From positions 1 through 25,920 of IMG/VR virus record IMGVR_UViG_3300044682_000169: a stretch of 25,920 nt of DNA, one strand, 5' to 3'. The position numbers and the translations under genes are program-made. Below are positions 7,072 through 23,607 of this stretch, in pieces (the first letter of the stretch is position 1; the number at the start of each line of letters is the position of its first letter). The notes beneath the pieces were generated by a model. The model was not told where the DNA came from, ran no database searches, and worked only from the letters and a program-made list of their open reading frames with translations. The stretch is from a virus.

Positions 7072-8643
7072 ATGCCGATCGTCCAGCAGGGCAGCATCAA
7101 CACCACCGCGCTGGTGGTGCCCGATCTCTATGTGCAGATCGTTCCGCCTCAGAACCTGTTGCTGAACGGCGTCCCGACCGACGTCGTGGGCGTGGTCGGC
7201 ACCGCGAATTGGGGACCGATCGGCCAGCCGGTGATCGTTGCCACAATGGCCGACTACGCCAGCAATTTCGGCTCCGTCCAGCCGCGCAAGTTCGACATGG
7301 GCACGGCGGTGGCGTGCGCGGTGCAACAGGGCGCCGGCAATTTCCGCTGCGTGCGGGTGAGCGACGGCACCGACACCGCGGCGAGCCTGCAACTGCCGGG
7401 CACCAACGTGGTGCTGACGGCGCTCTACACTGGGTCGCTGGGCAACTCGATCGGTGTGACGCTTGGCACCGGCAGCCAGGCGGGCAGTTGGCGGCTGACG
7501 GTGGGACTGCCGGGCCTGACGCCGGAGGTTTACGATAACGTCGTCGGCACGGGCGCCGGGTTCTGGGCGGCGTTGGCGAGCGCCGTGAATGCTGGGCAGG
7601 GGCCGCAGCGCGGGCCTTCGCAACTGACCGTGGTGAACCCCGGCTCGACCACGGTGGCGCCCGCGGCGGTGTCCGCCAGCTTTGCCAAGGGCAGCGCCGG
7701 CACCGACGGAGCCACCGCTGTGACGGCGGCAATGCTGGTCGGCGTGGACGTGCCGCCGCGGCGCGGAATGTATGCGCTGCGCTCCCAGGGGTGCAGCATC
7801 GGCGTGCTGGCGGATACCGACGACCCGACGCAGTGGACCACGCAGGCTGAGTTCGGCCTTTCCGAAGGCCTCTACATGATCCTGACGGGACCGGCCAGCG
7901 ACGTGATCGAGAATGCGGTCGCGGCCAAGCAATCCGCGGGGCTCGACACCTACGCGGCGAAGCTGATGTTCGGCGACTGGATCTGGTGGAACGACCAGGT
8001 GAACGGCGTGCTGCGGGTGGTCAGCCCGCAAGGCTTCGTGGCGGGCCGGCTGGCCAATCTCTCACCCGAGCAGAGCAGCCTGAACAAGCCGCTGTATGGC
8101 GTGGTGGGCAGCCAGAGTTCCGGGCAGCCGGGCAGCGCGCAGGCCAGCACCTACTCGGCGGCGGAGCTGACGGTGCTGCTGCAGGCGGGCATCGACGTCA
8201 TCACGAACCCGCAGCCGGGCGGCTATTTCTGGGGCGTGCGCGGCGGCCACAACAGCAGCAGCAATGCCGCGGTGGACGGCGACAACTACACGCGGATGAC
8301 CAACTATATCGCGGCAACACTGTCCGCCGGCATGGGGCAGTATGTGGGCCAGGTCATCACCGCTGACCTGTTCCGCCGCATTCGCGCGACGCAGATGGCC
8401 TTCCTGCAGGGGATGCTGTCGCAGGGCTTGCTGGGCAGCACCGACGGCAGTCTGCCGTTCAGCGTCGTGTGCGACATCAGCAACAATCCGCCCAGCCGGA
8501 CGGGACTTGGTTATGTGCAGTCGGACGCGCAGATCCAGTATCAGGCCATCAACGAGAAGTTCATTGTCAACATGGAGGGCGGCCAGACCGTGCAGGTGCA
8601 GCGGCAGACGCTGCCCAGCACGCCCGGCGCCCTCTCGGCCTGA
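7072..8643 (+). CDS. Contractile tail sheath protein
   Basis: The sheath surrounds the tail tube and contracts to drive it through the host envelope. The 523-residue length is typical. The N-terminal segment contains TDVVGVVGTANWGPIGQPV, followed by FDMGTAVACAVQQGAGNFRCVRV, the conserved beginning of contractile sheath proteins. The middle (about residues 105-225) is a variable Ser/Thr/Gly-rich domain facing outward in known sheaths. The C-terminal domain has GGYFWGVRGGHN, MTNYIAATLSAGMGQYVGQV and a final FIVNMEGGQTVQVQRQTLPS, the region that interlocks neighbouring subunits. The tube gene follows after 12 bases. This protein establishes that the tail is of the myovirus type. Confidence 0.92.
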   Translation: MPIVQQGSINTTALVVPDLYVQIVPPQNLLLNGVPTDVVGVVGTANWGPIGQPVIVATMADYASNFGSVQPRKFDMGTAVACAVQQGAGNFRCVRVSDGTDTAASLQLPGTNVVLTALYTGSLGNSIGVTLGTGSQAGSWRLTVGLPGLTPEVYDNVVGTGAGFWAALASAVNAGQGPQRGPSQLTVVNPGSTTVAPAAVSASFAKGSAGTDGATAVTAAMLVGVDVPPRRGMYALRSQGCSIGVLADTDDPTQWTTQAEFGLSEGLYMILTGPASDVIENAVAAKQSAGLDTYAAKLMFGDWIWWNDQVNGVLRVVSPQGFVAGRLANLSPEQSSLNKPLYGVVGSQSSGQPGSAQASTYSAAELTVLLQAGIDVITNPQPGGYFWGVRGGHNSSSNAAVDGDNYTRMTNYIAATLSAGMGQYVGQVITADLFRRIRATQMAFLQGMLSQGLLGSTDGSLPFSVVCDISNNPPSRTGLGYVQSDAQIQYQAINEKFIVNMEGGQTVQVQRQTLPSTPGALSA

Positions 8644-8655
8644 GGAGCATAGCGC

Positions 8656-9090
8656 ATGAGTGGGACGACGAATGCGTTTTCTGTCGGGCGCGACTGCCAG
8701 CTCGTGGTGATCACGCCGAGCGGCCGGCTCGATCTGGAGCACGTGACCGGCTTCGAGGCGCGGCAGTTGACCGCGCCGGTGCGCGTGGACCGGATCGACG
8801 GCGTGCAGCTTGCGGCGGAGCTGCCGAAGGGCTGGGACGGTCAGTTCGACCTGGAGCGCGGGTCTTCGGCGGCAGAGGACTTCATTGCCACCCTGGAGGC
8901 ACAATACTACCAGGGAGCGGCGCTGACGCAATCAACGCTGTATCAGTATATAAACGAAACTGACGGGAGCACCTCGACCTATCAATTCCAGGGTGTGGTT
9001 TTCAAACTGACGAGCGCTGGGGCCTGGCGCGGCGACGCGAGCGTCAAGCAACGGCTCGAGTTCTTCGCCTCCACCCGGGTGCGCGTCTGA
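8656..9090 (+). CDS. Tail tube protein
   Basis: The 144-residue product is the stacked-ring subunit of the inner tube. It is the right size, directly follows the sheath and contains the alternating strands expected of the fold: CQLVVITPSGRLDLEHVTGF, then RVDRIDGVQLAAELPKGWDG, and near the end STYQFQGVVFKLTSAGAWRG and ASVKQRLEFFASTRVRV. GGAG at 8644-8647 precedes the ATG by eight bases. The stop overlaps the start of the chaperone gene by one base (TGATG). Confidence 0.85.
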   Translation: MSGTTNAFSVGRDCQLVVITPSGRLDLEHVTGFEARQLTAPVRVDRIDGVQLAAELPKGWDGQFDLERGSSAAEDFIATLEAQYYQGAALTQSTLYQYINETDGSTSTYQFQGVVFKLTSAGAWRGDASVKQRLEFFASTRVRV

Positions 9091-9428
9091 TGGAGACGCC
9101 CTCGGCGCGCATCGTGGCGGCGGCGCAGGCGACCAGCGAGGTGGCCGATGCGGAGGGCCGCCGGCTGACGCTGCGACGGCTGAATGCCTTGGACCGGCTG
9201 CGCCTGTTCAAGGCGGCGGGTGCGACGCTGGCCGGCAATCCGGGCTGGATGGGGCTTGCCACCCTGGCCTTCAGCGTGACGGCGATCGACGGCGTGCCGG
9301 TGCCGCAGCCGGCCAGCGAGCCGCAGGTGGAGGCGGTGGTGGCGAGGCTGGGCGATGCCGGCCTGGCGGCGGTGGCGGCCAAGCTGGCGCCGGCCGCTCC
9401 CGCCGCCGCGGACCACGCAAAAAACTGA
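9090..9428 (+). CDS. Tail assembly chaperone, zero-frame product (G-type)
   Basis: A 112-residue helical protein between the tail tube gene and the tape-measure slot, where long-tailed phages keep the chaperone that coats the tape measure during tail assembly. The region with GRRLTLRRLNALDRLRLFKA (around residues 24-43) resembles such chaperones. The frame ends at 9426-9428 immediately after GCA AAA AAC, which contains the slippery heptamer A_AAA_AAC in the correct register. Most ribosomes would stop here and give the short product; a minority would shift to -1 and make the extended form. It overlaps the tail tube gene by one base. Sequence similarity alone would be moderate evidence; position plus the frameshift signal make the assignment strong. 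Confidence 0.85.
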   Translation: METPSARIVAAAQATSEVADAEGRRLTLRRLNALDRLRLFKAAGATLAGNPGWMGLATLAFSVTAIDGVPVPQPASEPQVEAVVARLGDAGLAAVAAKLAPAAPAAADHAKN

Positions 9429-9598
9429 TCCGGCACCCCGATCTGGTGGATAGCCTGTTCCTGATCCGGAACGGGGTGCCGTTCGACGTGGCGTTTTCGC
9501 TGCCGGTGGAGGACCGCACCGCCTGGGTGATCGCCCTGGGCACGTTACAGGGCCGCCGCTTCGACTTCGAGGCGATGTGCTGGGAGCAGCCGCCATGA
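9090..9598 (+). CDS. Tail assembly chaperone, -1 frameshift product (GT-type)
   Basis: After decoding AAC at 9423-9425, a ribosome that slips back one base continues with CTG at 9425-9427. It then reads 57 more codons to TGA at 9596-9598, giving a product of about 169 residues. The extension reads LIRHPDLVDSLFLIRNGVPF, then DVAFSLPVEDRTAWVIALGT and a short end with FDFEAMCWEQPP, a well-behaved protein sequence with no start codon of its own. It occupies the gap that would otherwise exist between 9428 and 9595 and ends in an ATGA overlap with the next gene. In lambda the equivalent GT product binds the tape measure and recruits tube subunits; P2 uses E/E' in the same way. Confidence 0.85.
9419..9481 (+). 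promoter_or_regulatory. Programmed -1 ribosomal frameshift signal
   Basis: The heptamer A_AAA_AAC occupies 9419-9425 in the zero-frame register GCA AAA AAC. After a 5-base spacer (9426-9430) the sequence CGGCACCCCG (9431-9440) is perfectly complementary to CGGGGTGCCG (9472-9481), giving a 10-bp GC-rich stem with a 31-base loop. Slippery site, spacing and stem are all textbook values for bacterial and phage -1 frameshifting. The loop is large enough to contain further structure or a pseudoknot. The TGA follows the heptamer directly. Confidence 0.85.
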
Positions 9599-10671
9599 GC
9601 GAGATCACGGACGCGTCGCCGGCTGAGCCGGATGCGGCGGCGATCGGCTTCGCCGTGCTGGCATCTGGCATGGAAGAGGCGTTCGCGGCCGTGCAGGCGG
9701 AGATCGCGATGCTGTCGCGGGTGCTCCAGGACTCGCGGGCTGCACCCCATGCGGCGCTGCCGTCGCCGACCCAAGTTCCCGCGAAGCCGCAGCCGCCGGA
9801 TTCGCCGGCGCGTGCGGCCCCCAGTCCTTCGACGGAGGCTGCAGGCTCAGACGTTGTGATTCCTGCGCGGTCGCCGCCGGTGCGCGCACCGGTCGAGGCT
9901 AGGCCCGGGCCGACCGCGGCACGCGACACTTCGCCGCAGGTTGCAGTCCCGGTTCGTTACGAGAGGGTTGCTGCATCGGCTGCGCCCATGCCGGAGGCGG
10001 CATCGCAGCCACGCACGACCGACGCCTGGACGACGCTGCCGCCGGTGGCCAATCCGCCGGCAACCCCGACGCCCATGCAACCCCCCGACGTTCCGACATG
10101 GGAACCGCCGCAGCCGATGCCGAGCGCTCCGCTGGCGCATGGGGTCGGGGACGTTTTGACTCCCCCCGAGCCCGGTGGGCCCGCGGAGCTGCCCTGGGTG
10201 CAACCGAGTCCGGTGGCGAGCGTGCTGACCGCGGCGGTGCCGACACCGGCGCGGCCGATGCAGCGGCCGCCGTGGCCGCTGGAGCGGCCTGCTATACCAA
10301 GTACGCCGGCAACGCGCGCGGTGATTGCAGGTGCGGAGGCACCCTGGCCCGGCAGCGCGATGGCACCGGCCTGGGCGCCGATGCCGATGCCGATGCAGAT
10401 GGCTCCGGTGGCGCCGGACATGGCGCCGGTGGGGCCGCAGGCATCGGCCAGTGCGCCCGATACATCCATGACGCGGAACACGACGCATCAGCATCACCAC
10501 GCATCCGATCGCTCCGCGCCGCTGCATGGCGACGTGTTCCTCGATGGGATGCGGGTGGGCCACTGGCTTGCGGAAACGCTAGCGCGCGAGGCCGGCGGCC
10601 CGGCGGCAGGCAGTACCTCGTTCGACCCACGCCTGGGACCGCGCTGGCCGGGTGCCTTGCAGGGACAATGA
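9595..10671 (+). CDS. Short proline-rich protein in the tape-measure slot
   Basis: This 358-residue product lies where the tape measure gene belongs, right after the frameshifted chaperone. It is atypical. A likely helix covers about residues 13-46. Residues 50-295 are dominated by Pro, Ala, Met, Thr and Ser (for example MQPPDVPTWEPPQPMP and WAPMPMPMQMAP), with no visible coiled coil or membrane segment. A His cluster (HQHHH, residues 298-302) follows. The C-terminal 50 residues form a compact motif with HGDVFLDGMRVGHWLAETLA, which looks like the end of tape measure proteins I have seen, where V-LDG-VG is common. I chose the ATG at 9595, with GGGAG at 9582-9586, over one 18 bases upstream. 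It could be a shortened tape measure, or another tail protein if the true tape measure is missing. Confidence 0.55.
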   Translation: MSEITDASPAEPDAAAIGFAVLASGMEEAFAAVQAEIAMLSRVLQDSRAAPHAALPSPTQVPAKPQPPDSPARAAPSPSTEAAGSDVVIPARSPPVRAPVEARPGPTAARDTSPQVAVPVRYERVAASAAPMPEAASQPRTTDAWTTLPPVANPPATPTPMQPPDVPTWEPPQPMPSAPLAHGVGDVLTPPEPGGPAELPWVQPSPVASVLTAAVPTPARPMQRPPWPLERPAIPSTPATRAVIAGAEAPWPGSAMAPAWAPMPMPMQMAPVAPDMAPVGPQASASAPDTSMTRNTTHQHHHASDRSAPLHGDVFLDGMRVGHWLAETLAREAGGPAAGSTSFDPRLGPRWPGALQGQ

Positions 10672-17483: not shown

Positions 17484-20400
17484 ATGCCGACCGTTCCGCA
17501 ATTGCCGGCGGCTGCCGCCGTTTCGGCTGACAACCAGCTGCTGCTCTGGCAGGGCGGCCAGACCGTATCGGTGACGACGGAAGTGCTGCTGGCTTCCGTT
17601 CAACCGCAGCTAACCCTCTCGGCCGGCGCGCTGCTGGGCCGCGTTGCCGCCGGCGTGGGCACTCCGCAGGCGGTACCGGTTGGCCCCGGACTGGTGCTGA
17701 ACAGCGCCGGCATTGCCGTGGATACGACGGCGGTGGCGATGCTGGAGAGTCCGGCATTGGCCGGCCGCCCCACCGCGCCCACGCAACTGGCGGGCGACAA
17801 CTCCGACGCGCTCGCCACGACCGCTTTCGTCAGCAATTCGAGCCCACCGCTGACATTCGTCGGCGACGTGACCGGCAGCGGCACGTCGCCAATCACCCTG
17901 CTGCTGCCGCCGATCTCCGCGCCCGGCGTGTACAGCAAGGTTACGGTAAACGGCAAAGGCCAAGTGACGGCCGGCGGCAGCATTGGTGCCGCCGATGTCA
18001 TTGCCGCACTCGGCTACACGCCGGCGTCCTCCACTACGTCGACGGTGCTGGCCGGTGCCGACGCGTCGGCGGCCGTGGTCTATGCGACCGGTGCGACAAC
18101 GCCACGCAGCTTGGCCTCGGTGGCCGCCGACCGCATCACGCCGCTGAGTTTCGGGGCCGATCCCACCGGCAACGCCGATTGTGCCCCGGCCTTCGCGGCG
18201 GCGATGTCGGAAGGGGCGGCGACCGGGGTGTTCCGGCTGTTCGTGCCTCGCGGCACCTACCTGCTGAACAGTGCCGTCAATCAGCCGGCCGGGCGATCGA
18301 TCACCATCGAGCTGGATGAGGGCGCGGTGCTGACCGGCCCAGGATACCTTGGTGTCGACCGCGTGGAATCGCATCAGGGTCCGTATCGCATCTCACAGGT
18401 GTCCGGCGGGTTCTTCTTCCAGTCAAGTGCTGTCGGCGCGATCACCAACCCGGGCTTCGACACTCAGATCATCGGCAACACGCCGCAGAACTCGGGTGCG
18501 GCCCGAGCCGGCTGGATGCGCAACTACACGAACTCCAACCTGTATTCAAAGTACAGTGGTGGAGAAGACTTTGCTGAGCAAAATGTATACTCCTGGCCGA
18601 GTCTGCTGGACGGCACTGCGGGATTCGGTCACTGGGACGTCGTTGCCGGGGCGACCTATGACGAAGCGACTGCCGCTCAGGCAGGCCTAAGCGCCTCCTG
18701 CGAGCAATCCCAGCACGACGTCGTCAACAACGGCCCAGAGAGCGGGTGGTCTTACGCGCCAGGCATCGGCAATCCGGTGCAGGGTATCTCCGTCGACCCT
18801 TGGGGTCAGAACGGCGCCTATGGTGGGCACCTGCTCTATGCCTATGGCTCGGTAGGCTCGTTCGACGGCACGAATGGCGGATTAAACCAGCGCTGGATCT
18901 CATATCCGGCGGTTTATGGCACGCCGAACGGCCCTGCGGTGCCGCAGGGAAGCTCGCTGACCATAACAATGGACGTCACCGCAAAGGGGACGGCGATTGT
19001 CGGCACTGCCGGCACCGTGACCGGGGTGACGATCACGCAGAGCGGCGGCGCCTATACCGGCGCACCCACAGTGACCTTTACCGGCGGGGGCGGCAGCGGG
19101 GCTGCGGCGACGGCGATCCTGCTGGGGGGCTTTGTGGTTGGCGTGGCGATCACCAACCCTGGGGCCAATTACAGCAGCGCGCCGGTGGTGAGCTTCAGCG
19201 GTGGCGGCGCGCCAGCCGCCGCACCCGTCACCGTGGCGTTGAACGGGGATGGTGCTCACGGCGATCCGGCCTCGGTCGCGGCGGCCATCCGGGCGGCTGC
19301 CATTCCGATGGTGGACGCTGCGGTTGCCCGTTGGGGCGGCGTCGTCGCCAGCTTGGTAATTTTCGGTACAGCGCCAGGTGATGTCGGCACGCTGACACTG
19401 TCCGGGAGCGCGCTCCCGGCGCTTGGGATTGCCGCCCAGCCTTACACGACCGACCGCCAGGACACCGCCCTCGCCATTGGCGGTCCTGGACCCGTTGCGG
19501 AAACGGACCAGTTGATGGTCAACGGCACGACCGTGACGGTGGGCGGTGCGGGAGCACTGAGCGACGTGGTTGCGGCGATCAACCGCGCCACCCTGCCCGG
19601 CATCCATGCCGACGTGGCGTCCAGCGGAAATCTGGTCCTTACGGCGTGGACGGTGCAGCAACCCTGTGGGTTGGTACTGTCCGAACCGGCCGGATGCACC
19701 ACGCTGCAGAAGTTGCGGCTGGTTTCCGGCACCACACTGCCCCCCACGCCGCCAAAGGCCTTTGCTACGGCCTATGGCGAGATGGGCGCCGGCGCCTGCA
19801 AGGTGACGGACGCGATCAGCGTCGCCGCCACTGATCTGGCCGGCAACAGCTATGGCCCGCTCAGCGTGACCCTGAACGGCGGCGGTGCGACCGGCAGTGT
19901 GGCCGACGTCGCGGCATCGCTCAAGGCCGCACTCGCGACCGCCGGTTGGGGCAGCGCGGCTATTGCGACGTTGACCTCGGCCCCGCAGATCGTGAGCGTG
20001 TTGGTGCATGGCAGCGGAGCCGCCAGCGGCCTGCTGATCCGCAACACTGCCGGCGGAACCCTGACGATCTCCAATGCCGCCGGCCAGCCGCTGGACACGC
20101 TGGGCGTCGCGGCCGGCACGTATCAGCCCGGCGGCTACTCCGCCGGTTCGCAAACCGTGTTCCACGTCGCTCCAAATGCGCTGGCGCCGCAAGGGCGCGG
20201 TGTTTTCATTGGCGGCAGTTCGGTGCCCGACGCGACCGTGTGGCCACATGCGCCGGCCGAGTTCCGCGGTAACTTCTCGCATGGGCTGCGTACCGACAAG
20301 GCGAGCTTCGGCGACAACAACGCCTTGCTGCTCGGCGCCGGGCAGGCCATCGGCTGGGGCCTCGGCGGTGCCACGCTGACGGCGGCCGGCGGGCAGATCG

Positions 20401-20516
20401 CGGCGAGCGTTCCGGCCAGCCTACCGGGCCTTTCGCTGACTGCGCTGCCGACCACCGCGCTGGGCCTGCCGGCCGGCACGGTATGGAACAATGGCGGCGT
20501 GCTCTCCATCGTTTGA
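17484..20516 (+). CDS. Large tail fibre with pectate-lyase-like and hook-IN-like modules
   Basis: A 1010-residue fibre, probably receptor-binding. Modules in order: an N-terminal attachment part with the phage-fibre motif GDNSDALATTAFV (about residues 104-116); a beta-helix start, ITPLSFGADPTGNADCAPAF (from about 218) and VPRGTYLLNSAV, like the pectate-lyase superfamily; a middle domain; two tandem copies of a Gly-rich beta repeat (about 510-586); three modules resembling flagellar hook-IN motifs (about 581-655, 677-745, 793-870); and the common fibre ending LPAGTVWNNGGVLSIV. GGAGA at 17474-17478 supports the start. No catalytic residues can be assigned by eye, so enzymatic activity on a polysaccharide is only possible. 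An adaptor-like gene precedes it and the signal-peptide spike follows after ten bases. Confidence 0.75.
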   Translation: MPTVPQLPAAAAVSADNQLLLWQGGQTVSVTTEVLLASVQPQLTLSAGALLGRVAAGVGTPQAVPVGPGLVLNSAGIAVDTTAVAMLESPALAGRPTAPTQLAGDNSDALATTAFVSNSSPPLTFVGDVTGSGTSPITLLLPPISAPGVYSKVTVNGKGQVTAGGSIGAADVIAALGYTPASSTTSTVLAGADASAAVVYATGATTPRSLASVAADRITPLSFGADPTGNADCAPAFAAAMSEGAATGVFRLFVPRGTYLLNSAVNQPAGRSITIELDEGAVLTGPGYLGVDRVESHQGPYRISQVSGGFFFQSSAVGAITNPGFDTQIIGNTPQNSGAARAGWMRNYTNSNLYSKYSGGEDFAEQNVYSWPSLLDGTAGFGHWDVVAGATYDEATAAQAGLSASCEQSQHDVVNNGPESGWSYAPGIGNPVQGISVDPWGQNGAYGGHLLYAYGSVGSFDGTNGGLNQRWISYPAVYGTPNGPAVPQGSSLTITMDVTAKGTAIVGTAGTVTGVTITQSGGAYTGAPTVTFTGGGGSGAAATAILLGGFVVGVAITNPGANYSSAPVVSFSGGGAPAAAPVTVALNGDGAHGDPASVAAAIRAAAIPMVDAAVARWGGVVASLVIFGTAPGDVGTLTLSGSALPALGIAAQPYTTDRQDTALAIGGPGPVAETDQLMVNGTTVTVGGAGALSDVVAAINRATLPGIHADVASSGNLVLTAWTVQQPCGLVLSEPAGCTTLQKLRLVSGTTLPPTPPKAFATAYGEMGAGACKVTDAISVAATDLAGNSYGPLSVTLNGGGATGSVADVAASLKAALATAGWGSAAIATLTSAPQIVSVLVHGSGAASGLLIRNTAGGTLTISNAAGQPLDTLGVAAGTYQPGGYSAGSQTVFHVAPNALAPQGRGVFIGGSSVPDATVWPHAPAEFRGNFSHGLRTDKASFGDNNALLLGAGQAIGWGLGGATLTAAGGQIAASVPASLPGLSLTALPTTALGLPAGTVWNNGGVLSIV
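19011..19241 (+). repeat. Tandem Gly-rich beta repeats in the fibre
   Basis: Two copies of about 38 residues. The first contains GVTITQSGGAYTGAPTVTFT and the second GVAITNPGANYSSAPVVSFS, each followed by a Gly/Ala-rich turn region. The conserved pattern is V-x-I-T-x-x-G-x-x-Y-x-x-A-P-x-V-x-F-x-G. Such units occur in extracellular and fibre proteins and probably stack as beta hairpins along the fibre. Confidence 0.65.
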
Positions 20517-20526
20517 AAGGCATCCT

Positions 20527-23500
20527 ATGCAAAGGATTCTTGCCGCCGCGGCGATGGTGCTGCTGGCCGGCTCCGCTGCGGCGCAGACGCTGCCATCGCC
20601 GCAATTCGCAAACCCGCCGGTGGGCGACTCGTCCAATGCCGCCGCGACCACGAGCTGGGTGCGCAGCCAAGGATTTTCCACCGGCAGTGCGGACGTCGGA
20701 ACGACGCCCGTGCTGATCCCGGGCAGCACCGTGGCGCGCACCGTGGTGCAGCGTGCCGCCACGACGTTCAACGTGCTGGATTATGGTGCGGTCGCGGACG
20801 GCGTGACCGATCTCGCCCCCGCACTGAACGCGATCGCCGCGCAAATGCCGGCGAACACATCGAACGAGGTCCTGATCCCGGCCGGCAATTATGCGCTGAA
20901 GAGCCCGGTGGTGTTCAACGGAGTGGCACCGATCATGGAGGGCCAGGGTTTCACCGCTGGCCCCAACGCCAATGGCGCGAGCGGCACCTGGATCACCATC
21001 TCGGGGACCGGGTACACGCCGATCCTGTTCGAGAGCACCAACGCACGCGGCGCCCAGATCAGGGACATCGCGTTTTCCGAGGTGCAGCCGGCGCCGGCTG
21101 CCGGCTGGACGCCCGCCCCCTATGACTACGTCATCCGCGTTCAGAATGCGCTCGGCCAGGTGACGATCGACAACGTGCTGATGTCCGGCGTGACGCAGGG
21201 CCTGTACGCCGACAACAGCGGACGTATCGACGTCAAGAAGCTCGACGGGCAGTTCTTCAAGAGTGCCGTGGAACTGGACGACTGTCTGGACATCCCGCAC
21301 ATCGGTGAGCTGCACGCCTGGTCATACTCTACGAGCAATGCCGCAGTGATCGCCTATCAGGAGGCCAACGAGAACACGCTGATCCTGCACCGTGTCGATG
21401 GCATTTTCGTTGACGATCTCTTTTCCCTCGCCGCTCACGCCGCGGTCTACATTACCAACAACGCGACAGGCAACAATCCCGGAACGCTGACCAAGGGCTA
21501 CTTCTCCAACCTCTACGCCGACTTTGTGACCTATGGCGTGTGGATCGATTCGAGCGCGGGGGTCACCGCCCAATTCGCCAACGTGACCACTCAGAACAAT
21601 GACCAGACAGCGCCGGGCAGCACGCTCGCCGGTGGCCGTGGCCTCTACGTGACGGGCAACACCGTGGGCCTGCAGATCGATCACTGGCGCAGCAACATCG
21701 TCGCCGGCGCAGCAATCGACCTTGAGGGCTATGGTGCCAATATCCGCGTCGGCAGCCTCTGGGCGAATACGTTTGGCACGCCCGGATCCGGCACGCCGGC
21801 GGTGATGAATGCCACTACCGGCAGCAATCCGCCCAACACGATCCAGATAGACCATTCCTGGCTGCAGGGCGTCGCACCGCTTTACTTGTTTGCGGGCAGC
21901 AACGGCGGCCAGGAGCAGCCGGTGCTCATGAACGCGGCGGGCGACGATGCGAACAGCCCACGCGCATATAGCGTGAGGGCGGGTGCGTCGCCAAGCGTGG
22001 CCGCGATAGGCAGCGATGCGAACATCAACCTGTCCTTGAACGGCAAAGGCACGTCCGGCGTGCAGCTTCAAAGCTCGGGCCAGACCGTGCTGCGCGTCGA
22101 TGGGCTCAACAGCGGCACGGACGACATGCTGTTCCGATCCGGTGCAGGCACGATAAACCTGATTGCCGAGGGTGGCGACACCAGTATCGACGACTACCTG
22201 ATCGCTAAGGGGACGTCCGGCGGCGTTCGGCTGCAGGCCAACGGCAGCACCTCGTTTCGGACGGACAACCCAAGTGCCGTGGCCGACGACCTCTTGGTCC
22301 GCCCCGGAAGCGGGACGATGTCGCTGACGGCCGAGGGGGCGGACACCAACGTCAACGTGGTGGTGAATGCCAAGGGCAGCGGCAAGTTTGAGGCGCCGGT
22401 GATCCCGACGGGTGGCACGGTGGTGCGCCTGCTGTCGGACACACTGGGCGATTACCTATCGGGTAAGGATTGCGGCATGGCGTTGGACGGCACGACGGAC
22501 GACGAGGGTGCTCTCCAGACCTGTCTCAACAACGTCGTCCAAGGACAGGTGCTGTTCGTGCCGCCTGGCTTGATCCACCTGGGCGGTGTGCCGAACAACT
22601 TGCGCAACGCAATCGTCCGGCTTTCAGGCAACACCTACGGCAACAACGGGTCGCCGGGGACGGTGATCACGGAAATCGCTCCGGACACGCTCACCGAAAG
22701 CTACCTGCCGAGCGCCACCTCGGAAGTGAAGTTCGCGGGCAAGAAGAACTCCTTGGCCGAACCGAGCCCGGTGGTTCGTATCGACGGGCTCTTCAATGCG
22801 CAGGGCACGACCACGACGAACACGGTGAATGCGCTGCAAGTGAACTGCAGTGTCAATGCGCCGGCGGCGGTCGGAAGCAATTCGACGGACTACGTCTGGT
22901 GCCAGAACAACACCGTGACGGATAACGGCACCGGCGGCGCGCAGGACGTGGCCTATGCCGCCAACATCCTACGGCCCGCAGGAACATCGGCGGGGCGCAA
23001 CAACACCTGGGCGATCTACGGCATGAACAGCGACCAGGGTGGGCAGGGCTATGGCAGCCCATACTTTAGCGGTGGTCAAACGACGGAGCTGGATTATCAG
23101 GCCAACGGACTCGACAACAGCACGACGGGGTCGAACGGGATCAACGGCGTTCGCATGGTGGCCCATCTCGGCGGTGGCCGGTGGCCCGGGCAGCCGAACT
23201 ACCCTGTGCAGATAGGCAATCTACTGGTGCTGACCACGGGCGGCTACAACATCGGCTGCCAACACCCGGGCTGTGCTTTGCCTGACTTCGTCAACCATGC
23301 CATCAACGTCAACAGCGAGTGGGCGATCTCGGGCATCGACTTCACGCAAGGTCAGCCGCTTTCCACCACGCTGGCGACCGCGGCCGACCAGGGCGGCGCC
23401 GGCACTGCCCTTCAGTTCTCCGTGGCGGCAAACCCGCTGGTGACGGTGATGGCTGGAATGCAGGTTGCCGGGACCAACATCCCGTCCGGAGATATCGTTT

Positions 23501-23607
23501 CGGCGGTCAACAACGCGACGGGCGTTGTGACTCTTGCCACAGCCACCATCGGTAACGTGCCGTCGGGCACGAGCGTCGCCTTCACGTCCACGGCGCCGGC
23601 GGTTTAG
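20527..23607 (+). CDS. Tail spike with Sec signal peptide, ending at an in-frame TAG
   Basis: As read to the TAG at 23605-23607 the product has 1026 residues. Residues 1-19 form a clear Sec signal peptide: Arg3, a hydrophobic run (ILAAAAMVLLAGS) and AAA before Gln20. A fibre motif follows (VGDSSNAAATTSWV, about 32-45). A first pectate-lyase-like beta-helix starts near residue 79 (TTFNVLDYGAVADGVTD). Tandem repeats span about 499-625. A second beta-helix start lies near 639 (DYLSGKDCGMALDGTTDDEG), and a strand-rich domain ends at the TAG. AAAGG at 20516-20520 supports the ATG; an earlier in-frame start would bury the signal peptide. Beyond the TAG the same frame stays open for 184 codons (listed separately), so this may be a truncated gene or one read through. 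Confidence 0.7.
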   Translation: MQRILAAAAMVLLAGSAAAQTLPSPQFANPPVGDSSNAAATTSWVRSQGFSTGSADVGTTPVLIPGSTVARTVVQRAATTFNVLDYGAVADGVTDLAPALNAIAAQMPANTSNEVLIPAGNYALKSPVVFNGVAPIMEGQGFTAGPNANGASGTWITISGTGYTPILFESTNARGAQIRDIAFSEVQPAPAAGWTPAPYDYVIRVQNALGQVTIDNVLMSGVTQGLYADNSGRIDVKKLDGQFFKSAVELDDCLDIPHIGELHAWSYSTSNAAVIAYQEANENTLILHRVDGIFVDDLFSLAAHAAVYITNNATGNNPGTLTKGYFSNLYADFVTYGVWIDSSAGVTAQFANVTTQNNDQTAPGSTLAGGRGLYVTGNTVGLQIDHWRSNIVAGAAIDLEGYGANIRVGSLWANTFGTPGSGTPAVMNATTGSNPPNTIQIDHSWLQGVAPLYLFAGSNGGQEQPVLMNAAGDDANSPRAYSVRAGASPSVAAIGSDANINLSLNGKGTSGVQLQSSGQTVLRVDGLNSGTDDMLFRSGAGTINLIAEGGDTSIDDYLIAKGTSGGVRLQANGSTSFRTDNPSAVADDLLVRPGSGTMSLTAEGADTNVNVVVNAKGSGKFEAPVIPTGGTVVRLLSDTLGDYLSGKDCGMALDGTTDDEGALQTCLNNVVQGQVLFVPPGLIHLGGVPNNLRNAIVRLSGNTYGNNGSPGTVITEIAPDTLTESYLPSATSEVKFAGKKNSLAEPSPVVRIDGLFNAQGTTTTNTVNALQVNCSVNAPAAVGSNSTDYVWCQNNTVTDNGTGGAQDVAYAANILRPAGTSAGRNNTWAIYGMNSDQGGQGYGSPYFSGGQTTELDYQANGLDNSTTGSNGINGVRMVAHLGGGRWPGQPNYPVQIGNLLVLTTGGYNIGCQHPGCALPDFVNHAINVNSEWAISGIDFTQGQPLSTTLATAADQGGAGTALQFSVAANPLVTVMAGMQVAGTNIPSGDIVSAVNNATGVVTLATATIGNVPSGTSVAFTSTAPAV
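22021..22395 (+). repeat. Degenerate tandem repeats in the spike
   Basis: About two and a half copies of a ~55-residue unit. Matching pieces are NINLSLNGKGTSGVQLQ, TINLIAEGGDTSIDDYLIAK and TMSLTAEGADTNVNVVVNAK, each preceded or followed by a Gly/Ser-rich turn and a segment such as DDMLFRSGAG or DDLLVRPGSG. The last copy passes into GSGKFEAPV, a motif common in phage fibres. They link the two beta-helix modules. Confidence 0.6.

Follow-up and report, generated by a model that had tools for sequence, protein, structure and literature searches.

A probable programmed −1 frameshift site with a conserved, covarying hairpin in the tail genes of a family of phages

Tail genes and the site between them

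The window analysed in this study is the whole 25,920-nt stretch of the IMG/VR virus record IMGVR_UViG_3300044682_000169. Its plus strand carries, in order: (i) a tail sheath gene (7072-8643; phrog_23 tail sheath, E 1e-47), whose counterpart in phage phiKX1 is annotated as "phage tail sheath protein", (ii) directly after it, a probable tail tube gene (8656-9090; phrog_12993, a family of unknown function, E 3.5e-40), for which the tube identity is deduced from gene order, (iii) a 0-frame, G-like open reading frame (ORF) of 112 aa, the putative tail assembly chaperone (9090-9428; phrog_20383, also of unknown function, E 4.9e-20), (iv) a T-like extension in the −1 frame, composed of 57 codons and a TGA (9425-9598), and (v) a 358-aa proline-rich gene in the tape-measure slot (9595-10671), for which a function is proposed from position only. 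The extension, which translates to LIRHPDLVDSLFLIRNGVPFDVAFSLPVEDRTAWVIALGTLQGRRFDFEAMCWEQPP, ends in an ATGA overlap with this last gene (9595-9598).

Database matches of these proteins are sparse. The chaperone relatives match phrog_508 "tail assembly chaperone" weakly in 26 of 56 cases (best E 0.0013), phrog_344 in 2 and Pfam Gp41_Mu in 1 (E 0.04), and a PDB sequence search with the chaperone protein returned nothing useful. Searches with the extension gave no hit in Pfam or NCBIfam, and in PHROGs nothing scored better than E 0.07. A tblastn search of sequenced phages with the chaperone and extension of the window gave no match; searches with the tube and sheath proteins led to the Komagataeibacter phages phiKX1 and phiKX2, which have the same gene order. 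The phiKX1 site reads A_AAA_AAC TGAGC AGGCACCCCG...CGGGGTGCCC, and a 742-aa phrog_28 tape measure is encoded downstream, with one gene between. The chaperone reading is thus supported by the order of genes in the phiKX phages and by the published review of G/GT systems, with gene order weighing most and sequence homology being weak.

In the phiKX1 record (LC644975, 31376-31917; locus L082, 6414-6955) the chaperone and the extension are two hypothetical proteins, a joined CDS is missing, and the extension is annotated with a start downstream of the 0-frame stop. The first-pass annotation had predicted that the extension would be missed by automated pipelines, and this holds in both phage records found (phiKX1 and phiKX2), in which the two products are unjoined hypothetical proteins. 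The source strains of these phages, Komagataeibacter xylinus NBRC 13772 and 13773, are inducible with mitomycin and yield particles with contractile tails (PMC8566455).

Two other features of the window were recorded. The product of 9595-10671 contains 19% proline and has no Pfam or PHROG match; a proline-rich ORF is also present in 70 of 88 relatives (188-510 aa, measured between stop codons), its C-terminal residues being conserved (GDVFLDGxRVGRW...FDPRL..WPG), and a similar motif closes the 742-aa tape measure of phiKX1. Small size and a high proline content would be unusual for a tape measure. Further downstream, two consecutive genes of more than 1000 codons (17484-20516 and 20491-23607) overlap by 26 bases; both contain a pectate-lyase-like stretch (PF12708, in the first gene below the Pfam cut-off) and probably encode tail fibre or depolymerase proteins.

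Reading of the window, with both frames translated, revealed that the chaperone ORF is closed by the codons GCA AAA AAC TGA. The heptamer A_AAA_AAC (9419-9425) is in register and is immediately followed by the 0-frame stop codon TGA (9426-9428), which opens a 5-nt spacer, TGATC (9426-9430). Next come the 5' arm of a stem, CGGCACCCCG (9431-9440, with a core at 9432-9440), a 31-nt loop (9441-9471) and the 3' arm, CGGGGTGCCG (9472-9481, core 9472-9480); the two arms form 10 base pairs. When RNA 9426-9500 was folded, this stem formed with an energy of −35.0 kcal/mol; relative to dinucleotide shuffles, z is −3.15. The heptamer, TGA, spacer, stem, 57-codon frame and ATGA overlap had all been described beforehand, and each coordinate proved correct base for base.

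Taken by itself, the hairpin is unremarkable in this GC-rich window, where a perfect 10-bp inverted repeat with a loop of 3-45 nt occurs 7 times in 25.9 kb. By folding energy the 75-nt segment ranks at the 15th percentile within the window, and since 15% of all 75-nt stretches fold equally well, hairpin strength was dropped as stand-alone evidence. The sequence A6C occurs twice on the two strands, against 0.20 expected. The window sequence alone therefore hints at a frameshift without proving it, and it is the conservation over 257 distinct homologous sites that places the site beyond chance. Promoters and terminators were scanned for near the site and none was found; an intrinsic terminator was rejected on this negative scan and on the lack of a T-run after the stem. 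A search of Rfam with the site returned no family.

Homologous sites and the slippery heptamer

The 57-residue extension, used as a query, identified at least 443 encoding stretches in IMG/VR, and a profile search with it found 109 relatives in GTDB genomes; the comparative set, which includes distant relatives, comprises 257 distinct homologous sites of 66 nt. The extension is present in 160 of the 397 genomes (~40%) sampled from the family of the L120 genome (Acidisphaera rubrifaciens; family taken as Acetobacteraceae), in 2 of 385 sampled from the class of a Rhizobium genome and in 1 of 392 sampled from the phylum of Limnoglobus, this one genome having two copies. The planctomycete relatives (L154, L161, L411 and L417) belong to Limnoglobus roseus (two copies) and Zavarzinella formosa, and two of them, L154 and L161, retain both heptamer and stem at a large distance from the Alphaproteobacteria that are the usual hosts.

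A heptamer of the form X_XXA_AAC, with AAAC as its last four bases, is in register at 242 of the 257 distinct sites. It was found in 80/80 of the first viral loci and in 77/80 genome loci, the exceptions being L146 (AAAAAAA), L150 and L162. The first triplet is GGG at 162 of the 257 sites and AAA at 88, and in-place mixed triplets (e.g. AGG or GAA), looked for among the same sites, were not seen. A change from AAA to GGG requires three substitutions, and at least 8 such concerted A/G switches are required by a FastTree phylogeny from which the heptamer codons had been left out. In L154 and L161 AAAAAAC is retained although the first residue in the −1 frame is Arg and not Leu, so the C of AAC is not maintained for a Leu codon. 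Among the homologues tallied, the 0-frame stop lies 0-13 codons beyond the heptamer, and no fused chaperone-extension gene was observed.

Outlying members of the family carry other motifs: A_AAA_AAG (L259 and L396), A_AAA_AAA (L146 and L398), A_AAA_AAT (L462), G_GGA_AAT (L489) and, in L162 and L243, GGGGGAA, which seems to correspond to the "fivetwo" type of PRFect (PMC10885494); L150 has no recognised slip motif. Locus L317 is one base short, which breaks the 0 frame and may reflect a sequencing error. A separate lineage without AAAAAAC (L461 and L501) carries C_CCT_TTG in register inside the common sequence GGCCCTTTGGCC, and hence a different slip site that serves the same two-gene arrangement.

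These counts bear on two other ways in which the extension might be produced. Firstly, the polymerase could add or drop an A within the A-run, giving a fusion from edited mRNA; the site in the window is a run of six A, and slippage on such runs is known in bacteria (PMC5009743). Most relatives, however, read GGGAAAC, in which the runs of three are too short for transcriptional slippage, and a conserved, covarying downstream hairpin is not expected under this mechanism, which makes it highly improbable. Secondly, the −1 ORF could be a gene in its own right, initiated at its own start codon, with the hairpin either controlling its translation or linking it to the gene upstream. The −1 frame of the window extends open well beyond the heptamer in the upstream direction, the two ORFs of phiKX1 are annotated as separate genes, an ATG is located at the junction in L146, and in L504 the extension stands in a +1/−2 relation to the chaperone with an in-frame ATG of its own and may there be translated separately. 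Nevertheless, in 191 of 237 loci the −1 frame, followed from its upstream stop to residue 5 of the conserved domain, contains none of the start codons ATG, GTG and TTG (L146 and L504 are among the exceptions), and an in-register heptamer would be purposeless under a separate start. As a general explanation, independent initiation is very unlikely.

Conservation and covariation of the hairpin

All pairs of the 9-bp stem core are formed at 208 of the 243 AAC sites. In a set of 175 sites that are at most 90% alike, all nine core pairs are formed in 159 and eight in a further 11, most changes being from C-G to U-G or from G-C to G-U; the outermost pair (9431-9481) is not conserved in this set. As the first-pass annotation had pointed out, the stem bases also encode protein, and both arms fall within strongly conserved motifs of the extension (RHPDL and NGVPFDV). 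The stem could accordingly be regarded as a by-product of conserved peptides in a GC-rich genome, the more so as hairpins are common in the window. Codon usage argues otherwise: in the 175 sites, with silent-site counts and binomial values that ignore shared ancestry, the codon for Gly 9473 is GGG in 97% (22% at the remaining Gly codons of the extension), that for Val 9476 is GTG in 98% (37% elsewhere) and that for Pro 9437 is CCC in 91% (22% elsewhere). The frozen silent positions are confined to the arms, no comparable freezing being found in the extension outside them, and when the same extension peptide was recoded synonymously, the 9-bp core survived in only 20 of 2000 trials.

Covariation was assessed on an ungapped alignment (A4) of 48 divergent sequences, in which the named structure was compared with 500 shuffles and with slid controls. 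In this set 85.2% of cells are paired, both-side changes number 27, there are 19 further pair types, and the covariation score is 0.202; none of the 500 shuffles matches any of these four values, and the real stem lies above every slid control. That 5 pairs show a both-side change is in itself not unusual, as this number was reached in 82/500 shuffles. RNAalifold recovered only 5 of the 10 pairs from the divergent set, and the count on the named structure was used instead. Covariation of the stem in homologues had been proposed earlier as a check of the cassette, and the outcome is favourable: compensatory changes maintain the pairing, to a score that no shuffle reaches.

Individual loci illustrate this. 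In L399 the arms are changed to GGGAACGCCG/CGGCGTTCCC and in L498 to CGGCACGCCC/GGGCGTGCCG, with 10/10 pairs kept in each; L463 has double changes at two stem pairs, and in L519 one C-G pair is replaced by U-A. In L460, L468 and L485 the distance from the heptamer to the 5' arm is shorter by one base and 8/8 pairs still form, although GGC(A/G)CCCC is there read in another codon frame, as G-T-P or G-A-P rather than R-H-P. This change of frame may be regarded as direct evidence that the RNA rather than the peptide is conserved. Together with the frozen silent sites and the compensatory changes that alter amino acids, it refutes coding alone as the origin of the stem, an explanation to which we give practically no weight. 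Selection on the heptamer and the stem thus appears to act at the RNA level.

Relatives without the stem are L150, L162, L243, L259, L398 and L484. Grouped by motif, the two AAG sites retain 4/9 core pairs, the two GAA sites 4-6 and the one AAA site 3; L484 has AAC without a stem, and L150 neither motif nor stem. Homologues with the stem lost and the gene order kept, which the first-pass annotation had held to speak against frameshifting, thus do exist. As they are few and mostly have other slip motifs (A_AAA_AAG, GGGGGAA or A_AAA_AAA), they do not refute it.

The 31-nt loop is long, and its length is constant in nearly all relatives, which leaves room for a pseudoknot, rather than a plain hairpin, as the stimulator; extra pairing of the loop had also been suggested from the window. 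However, the best helix between the loop and the downstream sequence near the stem has 5 bp that are 83% paired, compared with up to 84% for unrelated distant matches and 98% for the main stem, and these five pairs are not fully formed by the bases of the window itself. The suggestion was not borne out, no conserved helix rising above background; nor is an inner helix conserved within the loop. A pseudoknot is consequently rather unlikely.

Proposed function and relation to known systems

We conclude that the site is, with a probability of about 94%, a programmed −1 ribosomal frameshift signal that would yield a tail assembly chaperone and an extended form of it, as in lambda G/GT. This reading agrees with the conservation of the heptamer, spacing, stem and frame relation, with the covariation, and with the gene order of sheath, tube position, chaperone and −1 extension in the window. 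In the proposed mechanism, ribosomes near the end of the 112-residue ORF would reach A_AAA_AAC and meet the resistance of a hairpin of 9-10 bp, which begins 5-6 nt beyond it. In a minority of them tRNA-Lys and tRNA-Asn would re-pair one base back (AAA AAA) and so bypass the TGA; at GGG-type sites tRNA-Gly would take the place of tRNA-Lys in the tandem slippage. After translating a further 57 codons, the shifted ribosomes would release a chaperone-extension fusion of ~168 residues. On the model of lambda gpG/gpGT, the tape-measure protein may be coated by the short form, and the extended form may recruit the tube subunit. The slippage, its efficiency and the roles of both products are inferred.

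In Escherichia coli A_AAA_AAC is much less shift-prone than A_AAA_AAG (PMC5009743), so the rate of frameshifting could be low. Hundreds of alphaproteobacterial phages pair AAC with a hairpin under selection, which suggests that sites with AAC need the hairpin. The less usual feature of the signal seems to be this coupling of an Asn-AAC A-site with a selected, covarying hairpin. It is possible, and we propose it tentatively, that such sites form a separate class of bacterial cassette, in which an AAC A-site heptamer, of a type best suited to mammalian ribosomes, functions in alphaproteobacterial phages with the help of an obligatory covarying hairpin; stemless relatives, of which the sample is small, would then have switched to other slip motifs (e.g. 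A_AAA_AAG or GGGGGAA), a trade-off between site strength and hairpin setting the ratio of the chaperone forms.

What is described here is probably a known mechanism in an unannotated family, as Pfam, NCBIfam and PHROGs name no function for it, with a signal that is unusually well conserved. A function can be proposed for phrog_20383 and for an extension family absent from the three databases. The family also provides a rich comparative case of a stimulatory hairpin in phage tail genes, with hundreds of variants, two interchangeable heptamers and natural compensatory mutants, and frameshifting could be measured in the inducible phages phiKX1 and phiKX2.

The tail g-t genes of the haloarchaeal viruses HCTV-1 and HCTV-2 use G_GGA_AAC and A_AAA_AAC (PMC5009743). 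These are the same two heptamers as here, but HCTV-1 and HCTV-2 are archaeal siphoviruses. In phage Mu, gp41/gp42 involve a −2 shift, in contrast to the −1 relation in the window and its close relatives; a +1/−2 relation was found only in L504. Bacterial dnaX resembles the present site in its A_AAA_AAN heptamer and in a GC-rich hairpin shortly downstream. It has an AAG A-site and an upstream Shine-Dalgarno-like stimulator; here, an upstream Shine-Dalgarno-like 4-mer is present at 56 of the 175 sites against 35 expected, a mild enrichment only. The E/E' genes of P2, likewise a phage with a contractile tail, share the position of the frameshift between the tube and tape-measure genes and the same order of neighbours. 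The slip site of P2 is T_TTT_TTG, and no P2 gpE/gpE'-type family was among the Pfam, NCBIfam or PHROG matches of the window proteins and their relatives. In lambda the slip site is G_GGA_AAG, whereas the present family has A_AAA_AAC or G_GGA_AAC, a strictly conserved hairpin and a contractile tail, and no sequence similarity to the lambda proteins was found. The organization of the lambda gpG/gpGT genes is shared: a short chaperone ORF follows the major tail (tube) gene, a −1 slip, predicted in the present family, is placed near its 3' end, and a short extension is followed by tail assembly genes downstream (PMC5009743).
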